From: a virus
Reading direction: 5' to 3' (one strand)
DNA length: 31,727 nt
Virus record (IMG/VR): IMGVR_UViG_3300013005_000111
Coordinates: 1-31,727 of that record
Shown here: piece by piece, positions 471-25,914 of the stretch
Layout of the letters: every line of letters starts with the position of its first letter
Position numbering within the stretch: the first letter of the stretch is position 1
The notes under the pieces: generated by a model
The model's input: only the letters and a program-made list of their open reading frames with translations
What the model was told of the DNA's origin: nothing
The model's database searches: none
Translations under genes and position numbers: made by a program

Positions 471-2111
471 TTAAAGAGTATTCAATCCGTGTACGTATAC
501 TTTACCGTAGAATTCTGAACGAACTACTTTTTTCGCGTAACGTGTCATAACACCTTTACGTGGTGTGAAGTTAACTGGATCATATACTAATGGAGTCATG
601 ATCAACGGAATATATGGACTAAATACAGCACCTGTTTCTAAGAACTGAGCACCTCTGAATCCCATTAAGATTACGTTTTCTGTCATGTAAGGGTTTTTGT
701 AAACTGTGTAACGATTATTAATCGAACCAATTTTTTGAACACCTGCAGCAAATTCCATTTTAGTACCGTCTGTGTCTGCAGCAAATCCTGGGATAGACTC
801 AAGAATTGTAGCTACTGATGGACTAGTTACTAAGAAGTTTGCACCTCCACGCAATGTTTTTTGGTGAATTTTGTTAGATACTTTTTGAAGTTTAGTACCT
901 AAAGTTTGGAACCAACCACCTTGAGTGTTATAGAATCCATCACCCGCTGTACCAACTGTACCAGCCGCAGCTTGTGTAAAGCTAGTTCCATTCCAGATGT
1001 TGTTGTTCAATGCTGACCAATACTCAGTTGTTGGAGCTGCAGAGATTAACATGTCCAAGATCTCTAAATCGATTTCCATAGATACGTACTCAGATAACAT
1101 TGAAGTTAATTCTGCTTCAGCATCAATTGAATGGTAAGCGTTTAAATCTTGAGCAAATTCTGGAGTCCATACTGCTTTCAACTTACGTGTTTTAGCAACG
1201 ATTGGATCTGATTGCATTTCCAAGTTAATTTCTGGAATATCAATATTGGTATTGTATCCATTGCTGAATTGTCCAATATTGTCCTCAAAATCACCTCTAG
1301 TAACATCAGTTGGTTGTTTGCTATATTTAACTGTTAATGAGAAAGATCCTGTAGTTACAGCTGTAGAGTCGATAATGAAATCGATTGAACCAACTGTTGT
1401 TCCGTCTAATCTAGTGAATGCTGCATAGTTAGCTAATGGAGTTGACCCAGAAACTAATGCAAATGAACGAACTGCTAATGGATCTAAACCTGGCAATGAT
1501 GAAGTTGCAACAGTAATTCTTTTGTAAGAAGTTAATGCACTTGTAAAGTTACCGTCAAAGTTAACAGATCCAGAACCAGCTACAGAACCAGTACTAACTG
1601 TTGCTGCTGTACTTGAAGTTTCGTTCATTGAGTAACCAAAACGACCTGCACCATATAAACCACCTGCTGCATCTGAACCTGTAGTTGTTACACCGAACAT
1701 AGAGTCTAATGCATTAGGGTTACCAAATGGATCACCTACTCTGGAATTGTTATCATCATCAAATCCAGGTTGAGCTGTACCATATTTAAAATCTAAGTAA
1801 AATACTAGACCAGATGGCAAGTTCATTGGTTGAACTGATACAAATTCTTTTGCTGCAAATTCAGCAAAGATTCTTCTTACTAATGGTAAAGCAACACCAG
1901 CCCACTCTTCAGATCCTGCTGTTGTACCTGTAGACGATGCTTCTTTTACTAATTGACGTGCTTGGTTTTCAAGCAATTGAGCCATTCCGGCTTTTTCAGT
2001 TTCGGTTCTAAGACCTTCTAACAATCCTGTCTTCTCCCATTTAGAAACTGCTAATTTAGCATTGTTTCTTTGAACGAAGTCATTTGTTTGTAATAAATTT
2101 GAAATTGACAT
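471..2111 (-). CDS. 23: Major capsid protein (T4 gp23-like)
   Basis: This protein forms the hexameric lattice of the phage head. At 546 residues it is close to T4 gp23 (521). Family hallmarks visible by eye are the N-terminal region ending in FVSVQPMNLPSG (T4 has ICGVQPMNSPTG), the central KTRKLKAVWTPEFAQDLNAY block (T4: KSRQLKAAYSIELAQDL) followed by DAEAELTSML, and a C-terminal FTPRKGVMTRYAKK...YVHG segment like the T4 end. The sequence QLVKE|A (E57/A58) is a plausible prohead-protease cleavage site that would remove a delta-type propeptide. The start is supported by AAAAGGAAAA about eight bases upstream. It follows the scaffold gene by 24 bases and is terminated by the hairpin at 391-419. 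Confidence 0.96.
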   Translation of the reverse strand: MSISNLLQTNDFVQRNNAKLAVSKWEKTGLLEGLRTETEKAGMAQLLENQARQLVKEASSTGTTAGSEEWAGVALPLVRRIFAEFAAKEFVSVQPMNLPSGLVFYLDFKYGTAQPGFDDDNNSRVGDPFGNPNALDSMFGVTTTGSDAAGGLYGAGRFGYSMNETSSTAATVSTGSVAGSGSVNFDGNFTSALTSYKRITVATSSLPGLDPLAVRSFALVSGSTPLANYAAFTRLDGTTVGSIDFIIDSTAVTTGSFSLTVKYSKQPTDVTRGDFEDNIGQFSNGYNTNIDIPEINLEMQSDPIVAKTRKLKAVWTPEFAQDLNAYHSIDAEAELTSMLSEYVSMEIDLEILDMLISAAPTTEYWSALNNNIWNGTSFTQAAAGTVGTAGDGFYNTQGGWFQTLGTKLQKVSNKIHQKTLRGGANFLVTSPSVATILESIPGFAADTDGTKMEFAAGVQKIGSINNRYTVYKNPYMTENVILMGFRGAQFLETGAVFSPYIPLIMTPLVYDPVNFTPRKGVMTRYAKKVVRSEFYGKVYVHGLNTL

Positions 2112-4519: not shown

Positions 4520-5149
4520 TTATATTCTACATTTACCATTATCACATAAAATCGATGTAATAATGCTGTTTACTTTATTATATTTGTTTGTGGTAGTACT
4601 AGTACCAACTGACTCGTGCATGTGCGTAGGCCGCATAAAAGCGCCATGAGTCGAAGGATTAGAAACAAAGTCCCAACAAATCAATTCAAAATCTTCTTGA
4701 ACTTCAACAGTACCCTCACTTCGTAGTTCTTTAACAGATCCTAAACCACGAGATGATATACCTAGTGTGATACCTGCTTTGAATAAAGCCTTTAAAATGT
4801 TTCCACTTGGAGTTTCAAGAATCTGTACAGCTCCTTTTAAATCATCGCCATCCCACCAAATTTTCAAAATGTTATGTGATACATTGTTCAAGTTAACTAC
4901 AGATGACTCTGGGTGATCTAATTCACCTAATGCTCTGTGTTGATCAATATACTCATTTTGATATCGACGACATTCACGTTCTAGTATGTTTCTTGGATAT
5001 ATTCTACCATTCTGATTTTTAGATCCAGCTCTTTGCAAAACTCCTTGTACAACAAAACCACCAGGTATCCCATATGCAGCTCCACCTGATTCAGCAAGTG
5101 AACCAATTGGTTTAAATGGCATATATTCTACTATTAGTTGTTTGTTCAT
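4520..5149 (-). CDS. 21: Prohead core protease (T4 gp21-like, peptidase family S80)
   Basis: A serine protease that matures the prohead by cleaving scaffold and capsid proteins. The 209-residue product (T4 gp21: 212) has the expected N-terminal layout (GVLQRAGSKNQNGRIYPR). It also has GELDHPES with the likely catalytic His79, ISSRGLGS with the likely catalytic Ser132 or Ser133, and a conserved downstream CWDFVSNPS with Asp158. The last ~35 residues are polar and variable, as expected for a self-processed tail. The start follows the previous stop directly (TAACATG) with AGGAG five bases upstream. Its neighbours are the portal, two unknown proteins and, downstream, the scaffold and capsid genes, matching T4 order with insertions. 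Confidence 0.95.
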   Translation of the reverse strand: MNKQLIVEYMPFKPIGSLAESGGAAYGIPGGFVVQGVLQRAGSKNQNGRIYPRNILERECRRYQNEYIDQHRALGELDHPESSVVNLNNVSHNILKIWWDGDDLKGAVQILETPSGNILKALFKAGITLGISSRGLGSVKELRSEGTVEVQEDFELICWDFVSNPSTHGAFMRPTHMHESVGTSTTTNKYNKVNSIITSILCDNGKCRI

Positions 5150-12543: not shown

Positions 12544-15060
12544 TTACCTTGCGTACTTTAATACCCCTAGTAGTTGGTTAACCGGTGCGAATGCTCCTGT
12601 AAGTTTGTATGTGTTGCCATGGAATGTAAATACAACTCCTTCGGTTGGTACAATTGAATCAAATCCTCCTAATTTTTGTATGCGACGAAGTTCTTGTTCT
12701 AGCTTTTGTACGGTAGACGGATCTCCTTTTGCTTGTAAATCTTTTATTAGTTGAGCTAGTTCCGTTTTTATTTCTTGCACAGTCTTATCTGGATTTGCTG
12801 CTAAATAATTAGTTGCATTTTGCAATACCAAAACTCCCAATCTCAAAAAGATTGATTCAAATGGCTCTAGGTTTTGTTTTTTATATTGTTTAAAATCTTT
12901 TTTGTCGAAAGCATCAACCCACGCTAAAAATTCTGGATTTGTTATTTGTTTTTTAAGAATAGATATATTTGTTGATTTGTCAGCAAATGCCCATCGATAT
13001 GTTAATGTATTAACTAGTTCGTCTGAAATTTCATAGCCTAATTGTTGAGCTTTTGTTTTAATAATATCTCGCCACCACGCTTTGTGATATTCACTGATTA
13101 AATCAGTATCTTTGAGATTGTATTTTTGTTGTAATTGATTTATTTCATTGAAAAATGCAGCTTGTTGATCTTCGAAATCATATACACGGCCTAATTTAAT
13201 ACGTTGTGGCGGAATAAATGAAAATGTTTTTTGCATATGTGCATTTGCATCTTGAATGATTTTTTGCATCATTGCACCACCGGTTAAATCAGTTTCAGTT
13301 ACTTTGCCTTTTTCATCATATTCAACTAGGTTATGAAATTGTAAGTGAGCTTTATCATATGAAATTACATTTTTAGTTGCTGGATAAATAATTTCCATGT
13401 TAGCAAATACTCGTCCATTTTTGAATATTTGATTTAGTGTATTTTCTGGAATTGATCTAAATGATTCTGTTAAATCTTCTGCACATGCTCGATATGCATC
13501 TACTACTCGTTGATAATCTTCCCCAGCTGCTGCTCCATTTTTTTCTATAGTTAATTGTTGTTTGCGCTGAAAATCTGCAATAATTTCAGGAGCCGTCATT
13601 GGATTAATTACAGTTCCAGTTCCTCGAGCAAAACCAAGTTCTCCATTTTTCCAAGTAACTTGAATATTTTGGCCATCAGTTTTTTCTGTAACTGCATTTT
13701 CAATATCTAATCGTCCAGACAATGAACGAGCTACAATTTCTTTGATATCATTGAATGTTAATCCATGATCGTCCCATGGGTGTGCCATATGACCTGCGGC
13801 GCCGCCTTCGGTAATTAACTTGTTTTCTTTAATTAGATTGCCGTTAGTCATGGCTGATTCAATTCGATATACAACTTGACTTTTATCACTCGGCACCCAT
13901 GGACGTCGTTGAGCCTTAATTGTTTTAGGAATCAATTTGATTAAACCAGTTTGTTGATTTAATGTTAACATGAATGGCATATGAAGCGGAACATCGAATT
14001 GATAATCAGAACCAATTGCTCCGGGCTTATTTTTTTGTACTTGTGCTACAATTTGATCACCATATTCATCTGCTAAATCATAAAATAAATTTTCAACGTC
14101 GTCTAAACTGATTGTTCCTTCATTTCTCGGATCATTTAAACGGTCAATAAAATGAGTAAACTCTCCTTGAAAATCTACATCAATTCCATATTCTTTAAAG
14201 AAATTATCAATGACTGGTTCAATTTCTTTTAATTCATCACGTGTAATGTAATTTTCGGTGATGATTGATTCTATTAATTTTGCGCCGGCCACTGTTTTAG
14301 CAAATTTATCAAAATCATATACAAATGATTGTCCTCTATGCTTTTCTAGATATGAACGTAAATGTTTAATTTTATCTGAGTGACGTTGTTTTTCTTTAGG
14401 ATTCATTATGGCCTCAAACACTTCTTCAACATCTTCCGTTAATGCATTTGTCCACCAGCCTACACTTAACATGGCAGTCTCTTGGATATCTTTTAAAATG
14501 TTCCAAATAGTTTTTATAGTTGATTCAGGTTGTCCTGGATATGACATTTCAAATGTTTGGTAGTCATCAATCTCTAAAGTTTGTCGAATTGTTGATGCAG
14601 ATATTGGTTGGCCGTTAGGATATAATAATGGATCGACATCTACATTTAATTCTACGGCATCTATTCCGCTTGGAATTGTTCGACCTTTTTTATCTCCAAT
14701 TGTAGCATATTTATCAACATTTGGTACAAAGTCTTTGGTTCGAACATAGTCATCGCCTTTTGTTGAAGCTGCCATTGCATAACGACCAGTTGCATCTGGT
14801 GGCAAGGCAAATAAATATTCATACGCGGCCATGATAGGCGAATTGAATTCAGTTGGTTGAATTACAATTTTAGGATTATTATTAAGTAGGTTGAATATTT
14901 TGATAGTTTTTTCACGTGTAATACCATCTCTAGGTTTTTCGCCGACTAGCAATATTACTCGTTCAACTTGAGGATCTTGTGCATATCTTTGAGCTAATGC
15001 TAAATGAGCTCCAGTTAATGGTTTAAATCCGCCTGGAAACAGTACTGTTATTTTATTCAT
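12544..15060 (-). CDS. Fusion of a cytidylyltransferase-like domain and a nucleic-acid-ligase-like adenylation domain
   Basis: An 838-residue protein with two recognisable nucleotidyltransferase domains. Residues about 1-165 have the HIGH-superfamily pattern: FPGGFKPLTGAHLALAQRY (the T-x-G-H motif reads TGAH) and the later ISASTIRQ motif, as in NMN/pantetheine-phosphate adenylyltransferases. Residues about 455-838 carry a set resembling covalent nucleotidyltransferases (RNA/DNA ligases): motif I EKTDGQN (Lys460), a motif III-like FANMEIIYP (Glu556), motif IV EGVVF (807-811) and motif V-like YKLTG (Lys819, second lysine replaced). A helical region (about 205-400) joins them. The substrate is unknown; RNA/DNA end repair or NAD-linked chemistry are possibilities. 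The start has a weak ribosome binding site and a TATTTATA element 16 bases upstream. Its neighbours are virion and packaging genes. Confidence 0.8.
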   Translation of the reverse strand: MNKITVLFPGGFKPLTGAHLALAQRYAQDPQVERVILLVGEKPRDGITREKTIKIFNLLNNNPKIVIQPTEFNSPIMAAYEYLFALPPDATGRYAMAASTKGDDYVRTKDFVPNVDKYATIGDKKGRTIPSGIDAVELNVDVDPLLYPNGQPISASTIRQTLEIDDYQTFEMSYPGQPESTIKTIWNILKDIQETAMLSVGWWTNALTEDVEEVFEAIMNPKEKQRHSDKIKHLRSYLEKHRGQSFVYDFDKFAKTVAGAKLIESIITENYITRDELKEIEPVIDNFFKEYGIDVDFQGEFTHFIDRLNDPRNEGTISLDDVENLFYDLADEYGDQIVAQVQKNKPGAIGSDYQFDVPLHMPFMLTLNQQTGLIKLIPKTIKAQRRPWVPSDKSQVVYRIESAMTNGNLIKENKLITEGGAAGHMAHPWDDHGLTFNDIKEIVARSLSGRLDIENAVTEKTDGQNIQVTWKNGELGFARGTGTVINPMTAPEIIADFQRKQQLTIEKNGAAAGEDYQRVVDAYRACAEDLTESFRSIPENTLNQIFKNGRVFANMEIIYPATKNVISYDKAHLQFHNLVEYDEKGKVTETDLTGGAMMQKIIQDANAHMQKTFSFIPPQRIKLGRVYDFEDQQAAFFNEINQLQQKYNLKDTDLISEYHKAWWRDIIKTKAQQLGYEISDELVNTLTYRWAFADKSTNISILKKQITNPEFLAWVDAFDKKDFKQYKKQNLEPFESIFLRLGVLVLQNATNYLAANPDKTVQEIKTELAQLIKDLQAKGDPSTVQKLEQELRRIQKLGGFDSIVPTEGVVFTFHGNTYKLTGAFAPVNQLLGVLKYAR

Positions 15061-23777: not shown

Positions 23778-24320
23778 TTACCAATCAACTAGTACCATTT
23801 TATTGCTCCACAACATTACATTGTCTGATTTAAAATCTAAATCTAAATCTAAATCTGCGATACCCGTACGGTTTGTGTCTTGTTGCAAAGCCCGTAAAAA
23901 ATTAACTAGTCTAGGGTTAGTATTGCGAGCTCCATCATTATCCAGATAATCAAATATACTAACTTCGCCTCCGGTTTCTCGAGCATACATTTTGAACTGA
24001 TTCATGAATTGGTCAATCATCAATTTATCAGGTTTTGTTAATTGTTCTGCATTTGCCATTATATACATACTTTGTTTTGAATCAACATAATATACTGGAA
24101 TAAATGTCGTAAATTCAGACCATCGGCCTACAATCACTTCTGCAACTTCTAATTCACTTTGTTCTTGTGTTATTTTGAAACATCGGTCCGTCCCATCAAT
24201 TTCATAGACACGACCATTATCTCCAGCTGCAATAAACCGAAACTGTTTTGATTTAATTTTATTTAAAAGATCTCGCAACTCAGTGTCAACGATTTCTAAT
24301 AATGATTTTAAACGTATCAT
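23778..24320 (-). CDS. Minimal protein-kinase-fold protein (180 aa)
   Basis: The sequence shows an ordered set of kinase landmarks: a glycine-loop-like AAGDNGRVYEI (31-41), a lysine in CFKIT (Lys49), helix C acidic residues (SELEVAE, 56-62), a hinge-like MYIMANAEQL, a catalytic-loop-like DFKSDNVML (Asp162, Lys164, Asn167; compare DLKPENILL) and a final LVDW in the place of the DFG strand. The chain ends right there, so the activation segment and C-lobe are missing. It could be a small-molecule or protein kinase remnant or a nucleotide-binding pseudokinase. I chose the ATG at 24320, one base after the previous stop (TAACATG) with AAGGAT upstream; the in-frame ATG at 24356 has no such support. 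Confidence 0.72.
   Translation of the reverse strand: MIRLKSLLEIVDTELRDLLNKIKSKQFRFIAAGDNGRVYEIDGTDRCFKITQEQSELEVAEVIVGRWSEFTTFIPVYYVDSKQSMYIMANAEQLTKPDKLMIDQFMNQFKMYARETGGEVSIFDYLDNDGARNTNPRLVNFLRALQQDTNRTGIADLDLDLDFKSDNVMLWSNKMVLVDW
23833..23856 (-). repeat. Four perfect copies of a hexamer in the kinase catalytic loop
   Basis: AAATCT is repeated four times on the plus strand, coding for the alternating Asp-Leu run just before the catalytic DFKSDN. Gain or loss of units would add or remove two residues without a frameshift. Confidence 0.9.
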
Positions 24321-24321
24321 G

Positions 24322-25914
24322 TTATCCTTTAAATGCAATATTTTTATCCAAGTCAATGCGAATTAAAAAATTCATATCAACATCGTTTCGTTTTTTAATT
24401 GGCTGTGCTAATTTACCAATTGCTAGTAATTCTCCGGCTTCATTATACAATCCAATTGTAGTTATGTAAGGAGCAAAAGCACTGCCACTAACAAAACTAT
24501 GATATGTTGAATCATCGTCTTGTGTTAATGATAAATTAGTTGACATATTGAAATCGCCAGCATCTAATTTAGCAACAGCACTGAGTTCATTGATTGTTAC
24601 AGTGCTTTGATAGCTAGCTGTATATGGACTTGATAAAATATCTTTAAATCTATAATCTGCTGATGAAATTACAACTAAGCCTTGTTTGCTAAACACGTTG
24701 CCAACATGAGCTGTTTGTAAAAATGTTCCTCCTACGCTACGGTCCGCTAACGCACTTATGTTGCTAGCGGAAAGTGACTTGTTAAATATTCTAATTTCAT
24801 CGAGATAACCGCGGAAAGAAGAGATTATGTTAGGATGTCCACCTATATACACGTCAGATGTATTATCAATTCTACCCGACGCACTCAATGGGCTATATGT
24901 ATTGGTAAGTATTTGATTGGATACAGAATTACTCAATGTTCCATCAATATATAATTCCAAAGTGCTTCCTGTTTTTTGACAAACAACGTGAGTCCATGAT
25001 GTAGTTAATGCAACAGATGATGTAGTAAAAACTGTATTAACCGGACTTACACTAGCTGCAAACATTAATTTGTTTGATGAACCTAACCCAGATATAGCAA
25101 ATGGATATTGACTTTGCAGTGAACTAGAGAGTTTACTAATTAGTAAATCACTAGCACCAAATCCTGATGGAGACCTGCTAATCCAAAAAGAAATTGCATA
25201 ATCATGATCTCGATCATAATACCCAGGTATCGAAGTTTGTATATAGCTACTAATTAGAACGCCAGAATTACTAAATTTAGCAGCTAGACCAACAGACTGA
25301 TTATCAACTAATGTTATTACACCGGGCAAATATATAACGTTTTCACTGATATATTGTATTCGAGTAGTGTCGAAATACTCATTGAAACCTTCATAAAATG
25401 TTTCGCCGCCGACAATCTTTGTTTGATCGAAATTAGCATCATATACATTGCTATAACGGTCGCTTTCTAAATTTATAGAGCCGGAACCGATAAATGTAAA
25501 TGATTCAGCTTTAATACCTTCACCAATTTTTATTTGAGGAATTGACAATACAGATGCAGATTCAAATAATACTTTTGTAGTTCGATTTAAATCAGTCGGA
25601 CCATATGATTTATACGGCTCATTTTTGTATTTATAATATAAATGATTGACAGAATGATAAATAACAGTTTGCAATGATCCGTTAATATTTGCTGCATCAT
25701 TGTATACTAATTCACTGCCTAGTGCTGGCAGTTGATCTGAATAAATTGCATTTAATGGCATCATGCTACTAGTAGAACTACCAGATATTACAGTCCAAGA
25801 TTTATAAACTTGGAATGGATTAAGCATCACATCCGTTGGATCTATCTTTTTAAAGACAGTTGGATATGCGCCTATATATGTATTTTCATTGTTTGATAAT
25901 CTAGACTCAGCCAT
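24322..25914 (-). CDS. Tail-associated protein with a LamG (concanavalin-like) domain
   Basis: A 530-residue virion-type protein. Residues about 215-395 form a LamG/pentraxin-like lectin domain: YAISFWISRS, SWTHVVCQKTGSTLELYIDG, VYIGGHPN and FRGYLDEIRIFNKSLSASNI are the classic beta-sandwich landmarks. Such domains commonly bind glycans, so host-surface or matrix attachment is likely. The last ~80 residues (YITTIGLYNEAGELLAIGKL ... LIRIDLD) match the C-terminus of the upstream 445-residue protein, suggesting a common attachment domain. The N-terminal part (about 1-140) starts with a short conserved-looking YPTVFKKIDPTDV segment. The start is weakly marked (AGGG about 17 bases away) and lies downstream of a composite terminator/TATTTATA element. 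Confidence 0.85.
   Translation of the reverse strand: MAESRLSNNENTYIGAYPTVFKKIDPTDVMLNPFQVYKSWTVISGSSTSSMMPLNAIYSDQLPALGSELVYNDAANINGSLQTVIYHSVNHLYYKYKNEPYKSYGPTDLNRTTKVLFESASVLSIPQIKIGEGIKAESFTFIGSGSINLESDRYSNVYDANFDQTKIVGGETFYEGFNEYFDTTRIQYISENVIYLPGVITLVDNQSVGLAAKFSNSGVLISSYIQTSIPGYYDRDHDYAISFWISRSPSGFGASDLLISKLSSSLQSQYPFAISGLGSSNKLMFAASVSPVNTVFTTSSVALTTSWTHVVCQKTGSTLELYIDGTLSNSVSNQILTNTYSPLSASGRIDNTSDVYIGGHPNIISSFRGYLDEIRIFNKSLSASNISALADRSVGGTFLQTAHVGNVFSKQGLVVISSADYRFKDILSSPYTASYQSTVTINELSAVAKLDAGDFNMSTNLSLTQDDDSTYHSFVSGSAFAPYITTIGLYNEAGELLAIGKLAQPIKKRNDVDMNFLIRIDLDKNIAFKG

Follow-up and report, generated by a model that had tools for sequence, protein, structure and literature searches.

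A kinase-fold protein that ends at the DFG aspartate position and begins with a leader resembling a T4 capsid targeting sequence in a T4-like phage

The window analysed here is the whole 31,727-base stretch of virus record IMGVR_UViG_3300013005_000111, and the features discussed below are collected in Table 1. At the centre of this report is a gene for a 180-residue protein, hereafter the mini-kinase, which is preceded by a possible ribosome-binding site. An alternative TTG start, giving 192 residues, is possible; the ATG is preferred because the family described below begins there, with Met at this position in 58 of its 62 distinct sequences and Val (GTG) in two (the first three residues of the remaining two were not extracted). 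The gene is flanked by large tail-region proteins on one side and DNA-metabolism genes on the other, in a window that also encodes a major capsid protein and a head maturation protease, the latter sharing 53% identity with the protein annotated as prohead protease in Flavobacterium phage vB_FspM_immuto_2-6A (immuto). The closest major capsid proteins of cultured phages are those of immuto (59.5%), Microcystis phage Mel-JY01 (54.8%) and Rhodothermus phage RM378 (38.3%), similarities which place the window in the same broad group of T4-like phages; its host may plausibly be one of the Bacteroidota. Elsewhere in the window (12544-15060), an 838-residue protein has a nucleotide adenylyltransferase-like beginning, and an immuto gene annotated as NMN adenylyltransferase (NadR) occupies the same neighbourhood as this gene.

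Table 1. Features of the window that bear on the mini-kinase.
Feature	Coordinates	Strand	Evidence or remarks
Mini-kinase CDS, 180 aa + stop	23778..24320	minus	ORF reading, family, model, fold search; start ATG at 24320, stop TAA at 23780-23778
AAAGGA, possible ribosome-binding site	24325..24330	minus	read directly from sequence
Leader residues 1-9, MIRLKSLLE, candidate capsid targeting sequence, candidate cut after Glu9	24294..24320	minus	conservation, pattern tests
Glycine-rich loop, G33-DNGRV38	24207..24224	minus	family alignment conservation
Lys49, equivalent of beta-3 Lys	24174..24176	minus	62/62; within modelled strand 46-51
Glu56, likely equivalent of helix C Glu	24153..24155	minus	62/62; within modelled helix 54-63
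Conserved non-catalytic stretch, residues 117-132, GGEVSIFDYLDNDGAR	23925..23972	minus	between helices taken as D and E
Catalytic loop, D162-FKSD-N167	23820..23837	minus	D162 and N167 each 62/62
Asp179 (DFG Asp equivalent) and terminal Trp180	23781..23786	minus	62/62
Variable downstream gene, 390 aa	22581..23753	minus	leader-like start MLESIIKKYLLE, then S
Head maturation (prohead) protease	4520..5149	minus	phrog_207, E 3.8e-55
Major capsid protein	471..2111	minus	phrog_138, E 8.3e-68

The mini-kinase reading frame is not a product of chance, since a search of viral contigs with a ten-member profile recovered 219 relatives (the best 80 were retained). The family set as extracted covers 84 distinct contigs and 62 distinct sequences, one of them identical to the window protein, and a profile search of 36 contigs gave a match in every one. 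Seven of seven sequence pairs gave dN/dS values of 0.10-0.32, with dS above 1 (saturated) in six of them. The kinase motifs that the preliminary description had picked out are all present, namely 33-GDNGRVY-39, Lys49, the acids at 53, 56 and 58, D162-FKSD-N167 and the terminal LVDW, and 36 positions are identical in all 62 sequences, among them G33, G36, K49, E56, D162, N167, D179 and W180. From sequence and model together, the catalytic loop has the form D(x)4N and is followed, after two short strands, by the presumed Mg-binding Asp. By analogy of position, the glycine-rich loop, Lys49 and Glu56 would serve the ATP phosphates, Asp162 and Asn167 catalysis, and Asp179 Mg.

That the protein stops at the position of the DFG Asp, as had been remarked beforehand, holds throughout the family: in each of the 84 contigs DW closes the chain, one residue past the DFG-equivalent Asp, and three stop codons are used at this end (TAA in 61, TGA in 19 and TAG in 4, counted without the DW ending as a filter). 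A further conserved region is the stretch of residues 117-132, whose mean majority fraction is 0.88 against 0.73 across the whole protein. We know of no catalytic role for these residues, which may bind a substrate or a partner. One related contig (G001) encodes a second, partial profile match of 242 residues that begins MIRLKDLLQE; by eye, it has kinase-like motifs with Glu at the position of the catalytic Asp and a tail of about 45 residues beyond the DFG-like Asp.

An AlphaFold2 model computed from 54 of the 62 family sequences is confident (pLDDT 91, pTM 0.85). It contains strands 27-33, 36-41, 46-51, 76-80, 85-89, 168-171 and 174-177 and helices 54-63, 96-116, 122-127 and 136-152, with a loop between 152 and the strand at 168, and these elements follow the kinase order: an N-lobe comes first, then two or three helices of the C-lobe, and last the catalytic loop with its following strands. 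A Foldseek search of the PDB returned 1123 matches at E <= 10 and four at E <= 0.001, led by APH(2'')-IIa (E 2.5e-4) and PRPK (7.8e-4) and followed by CK2, RIO1 and CDC7. The TM-scores by query are low (0.31-0.48), which is expected of a partial domain. In VIA-align, CDK2 aligned over 115 residues with Z 9.2 and rmsd 3.9, a Z of at least 8 being reached by 16 of 1000 chains; the structural alignment pairs model residue 180 with CDK2 residue 146, which we take to be the Phe of DFG. The viral library (BFVD) gave 59 matches at E <= 0.001, including many phage proteins of 142-216 residues; several entries from other phages are annotated as protein kinases.

The preliminary description had proposed a kinase fold, to be checked by structure prediction and fold search, and the model and the listed Foldseek matches agree on it. 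No kinase-unrelated fold emerged, as all 50 of the top PDB matches listed are kinase-fold proteins by name, choline and methylthioribose kinases included. We regard the kinase fold, as modelled, as nearly certain. The same description had pointed out that normal kinases need a C-lobe past this point for substrate binding, a picture that can be refined. In 84 of 84 contigs the protein lacks the activation segment as well as the later C-lobe helices (F to I). It does have the catalytic loop and counterparts of alpha-D and alpha-E, so that the mini-kinase is more than an N-lobe.

Sequence-profile searches were largely silent on this fold. The mini-kinase has no significant match in Pfam, PHROG or the PDB sequences: Pfam gave no kinase-family match for the window protein at E <= 10 and no Pkinase (PF00069) match among ten family members at E <= 1, there was no match to the APH, RIO or PRPK families for either despite the fold similarity, and the PHROG search gave the window protein no match to the T7 gp0.7-type kinase family (phrog_15752). 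The Pfam and PHROG matches that did appear (GhoS, EF-hand, phrog_3761, phrog_18684) were weak and mutually inconsistent and were set aside; EF-hand proteins among the PDB sequence matches (profile search, best E 0.009) were put down to an LDLDLD stretch. No relative was found in the phages collection at E <= 0.01, and a pattern search of genome_contigs matched 27 stretches, none a confirmed relative.

The first residues of the mini-kinase, which the preliminary description had passed over, form a leader, MIRLKSLLE, that gives the first tangible clue to the protein's site of action, the phage head and then the host. The family consensus is MIRLKxLL(x)E, and the mean majority fraction is 0.86 over residues 1-9 against 0.47 over residues 10-17. 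These nine residues are modelled with pLDDT below 50, yet DSSP assigns helix from residue 4. The Glu lies at position 10 in 47 of the 62 sequences and at position 9 in 15, the window protein among them; despite this change of one residue in length, every one of the 62 has a hydrophobic-x-Glu motif by residue 13. The T4 record gives both ipII and ipIII the start MKTYQEFIAE. According to passages of PMC9026906, the first ten residues of IPIII are enough for packaging; among them, 4 and 7 are important in targeting, and 8 and 10 in cutting by gp21. The kinase leader, hydrophobic at positions 4, 7 and 8 and with Glu10, fits this positional pattern of T4 capsid targeting. It differs in what comes next, since the leader Glu is followed mostly by L, I or M in the kinases and by a small residue (Ala) in T4 ipII and ipIII. 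Owing to this likeness to the head-loading tag of T4, the kinase may be delivered into the host together with the phage DNA.

Unrelated proteins in two related phage contigs (G001 and G002) begin with this leader too; we counted them in open reading frames taken from ATG starts as the longest non-overlapping frames in 20-kb pieces, with no gene caller. A strict leader pattern was found at 9 of 194 ORF starts and none of 681 internal Met in G001, at 6 of 182 starts and none of 793 internal Met in G002, and at the kinase only among the 26 ORFs of the window. As this pattern was written after the leaders had been seen, a register derived from T4 IPIII was added as a second test. It matched 7 of 184 ORF starts in G001 (against 0.25% of internal positions; binomial p 5e-7), 6 of 171 in G002 (against 0.24%; p 5e-6) and 4 of 213 in immuto (against 0.31%; p 0.004); with the kinase removed, the p values become 8e-6, 7e-5 and 0.03, respectively. 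In a T4 stretch it selected just two of 32 ORFs, those of ipII and ipIII; ipI does not conform to it. The register also matches a 349/350-residue protein starting MNKYQ in both G001 and G002, possibly by chance. A separate pooled pattern test gave matches in 84 of 840 distinct ORFs and, outside the kinase family, in 29 of 785 ORFs against 8 of 3471 internal Met, in counts that take related proteins more than once. A loose L-x-E rule was dropped because it is as common inside proteins (in G001, 45 of 194 starts against 130 of 681 internal Met) and thus is not enriched at starts.

The proteins that carry the leader include a VanY/lysozyme protein, a lysozyme-LysM protein and one with a weak GNAT match; cell-wall enzymes are not obvious head cargo, which counts against packaging. 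Seven of the strict-pattern matches in G001 are otherwise unalike ORFs with MIRLK-type leaders that lie close together at G001:21296-27646, the second kinase-like protein and a 642-residue VanY/lysozyme protein among them. In the cultured phage immuto, the 141-residue hypothetical protein gp231 (L109:24569-24994) starts MIKLIDLLTE, a leader of the same type.

The gene downstream of the mini-kinase is highly variable across related contigs (229-936 residues) and almost always has a leader-like start as well. A relative of it with 47% identity (in contig L015) starts MLETIIKKYLFE, then A. Its 50 distinct proteins fall into 16 groups at more than 50% coverage, or six if any match counts, and 49 of them have a hydrophobic-x-Glu motif between residues 1 and 25, while for internal Met the figure is 69 of 296; the 50 were counted singly in this comparison although they are partly related. 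The one that was missed has a GTG start and reads VIKLKNILSE. In 11 of 61 distinct neighbourhoods the gene is absent and an endonuclease gene directly follows the kinase; an endonuclease gene lies downstream of the kinase in at least 58 of the 84 contigs. The structural model of the downstream protein (pLDDT 39) was uninformative and was left out of the argument. One copy, in contig L017, contains an endolysin-like segment (phrog_2649, E 9.9e-5).

Cutting of the leader would be expected from the head maturation protease. The capsid protein of the window reads QLVKE, then A, near residue 57, QLVKE precedes A or S in the capsid proteins of two relatives, and immuto has QIVSE-A; QLVKE-A is a possible cleavage site of the same kind. 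The L-K-E of the scaffold is L-K-Q in G002 and immuto, which argues against a general L-x-E cutting rule.

Several known proteins resemble the mini-kinase in part. A0A6J5PIX4 in BFVD, an uncharacterized protein of an uncultured Caudovirales phage with no annotated function, belongs to the same family (180 residues, 88% identity, TM 0.94). Immuto gp093 (YP_010114590.1), a hypothetical protein of 146 residues, is similar over the N-terminal 105 columns (hhalign probability 92.3, E 5.6e-7), whereas the pairwise comparison is not significant (E 0.3). It shares the glycine-rich loop, the Lys, the leader register (MISIYNILKE) and an end in ...IIDV, and its locus is alike, with tail-region genes on one side and DNA primase, exonuclease and NadR-like genes downstream. 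It differs in being shorter, in lacking the 117-132 stretch and in seemingly having Ser for the catalytic Asp (by eye, outside the aligned part), so that the broader family may include inactive members. Its own profile matches are Pkinase at E 0.38 and the T7 kinase family phrog_15752 at E 0.15. Gp73 of Pseudomonas phage PaMx11 (L113:6856-7284, hypothetical, 142 residues), likened here by its motifs (DLKPEN and CLDY), is probably another small kinase-fold protein; unlike the mini-kinase, it ends 18 residues past the DFG-like Asp rather than one, and its start, MNLATFQDAF, is no MIRLK-type leader. Length and motifs suggest that it is the BFVD entry A0A0S0MVI9.

Two further systems offer parallels in shape and in delivery. 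In passages of PMC8196651, NleH and OspG are described as kinase domains without activation loop and terminal helices, of low activity that is raised by a host partner. By that description they resemble the mini-kinase in the missing parts; they differ in type III secretion delivery and animal-cell targets, and the PDB sequence search gave no match between them and the mini-kinase. IPII, IPIII and Alt of T4, the last an ADP-ribosyltransferase according to a passage of PMC9026906, are unrelated proteins with a capsid targeting sequence, which in IPII and IPIII reads MKTYQEFIAE and has the same register as MIRLKxLLxE, with the protease gene in the same genome. Unlike the case here, the T4 leader cargo are not kinases, and packaging of the mini-kinase is so far a prediction. 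Phage kinase-fold proteins, minimal kinases (NleH/OspG) and capsid targeting sequences are each known singly. A search of published work, largely without subscription journals, on C-lobe-less or small phage kinases and on capsid targeting in marine T4-like phages found nothing on this family, and a kinase-fold protein that ends at the DFG Asp and bears a T4-type leader is apparently undescribed in the literature searched.

The reading that we favour, at somewhat less than even confidence, is that the mini-kinase is a kinase-fold protein without a C-lobe which is loaded into the prohead by its T4-type leader, trimmed and perhaps ejected to phosphorylate a host target. The protein would be a kinase fold pared down to the parts that hold Mg-ATP together with the catalytic loop, and its first nine or ten residues would act as a capsid targeting sequence of the T4 type. 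Late in infection, the leader would bring the kinase into the prohead core, where the phage head protease would cut after L-x-E; a mature kinase of about 171 residues would remain in the head and leave it with the DNA at ejection. In the new host, it would transfer phosphate from ATP to itself or to some component of the host, and the 117-132 stretch may stand in for the absent C-lobe in substrate binding. The parts of this scheme differ in strength: binding of ATP and Mg is likely and phosphotransfer is slightly favoured, and packaging, cutting and ejection stand at about an even chance. A wider version, in which the kinase, with 117-132 replacing the lobe, belongs to a set of leader-tagged cargo that is injected and phosphorylates the host before any phage gene is expressed, is doubtful.

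The strongest alternative, itself rather unlikely, is a nucleotide-binding pseudokinase or late assembly factor that works inside the infected cell, for example in tail or head assembly, with the leader as an N-terminal docking helix. It would account for the absence of the activation segment and later C-lobe helices from every one of the 84 contigs, for a gene placed between the tail region and DNA metabolism with an endonuclease so often downstream, for gp093 with its apparent loss of the catalytic Asp and for the cell-wall enzymes among the leader-bearing proteins. Nevertheless, the invariance of D162, N167, D179, K49 and E56 in 62 of 62 sequences is unusual for a pure pseudokinase, and the leader fits the T4 packaging register. 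Less probable again is an active small kinase kept in the producing cell, where it would modify host or phage proteins, the leader serving some other targeting, such as to the membrane. T7 gp0.7 is a kinase that modifies proteins in the producing cell. The complete set of ATP and Mg residues agrees with such a role, as do several BFVD entries in which kinase-fold relatives from other phages carry a protein kinase annotation; the link to the T7 family, however, is weak, being found only for immuto's protein, and the resemblance of the leader to a packaging signal would be accidental. An artefact, in which a full kinase gene was truncated by mutation or frameshift or had its C-lobe split onto the neighbouring gene, could draw on a next gene only tens of bases away and in the same frame in some contigs, but it is refuted by the family data, which give the same end residue in all contigs with three different stop codons and a next gene that is variable and sometimes absent, and we consider it very improbable.

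If active, the mini-kinase would be among the smallest natural kinases and would reveal what portions of the fold are truly required for phosphotransfer. If it is packaged, the leader would offer a way to recognise head cargo by sequence in uncultivated T4-like phages, and with it host-takeover proteins that are otherwise hard to find because such cargo is too diverse.
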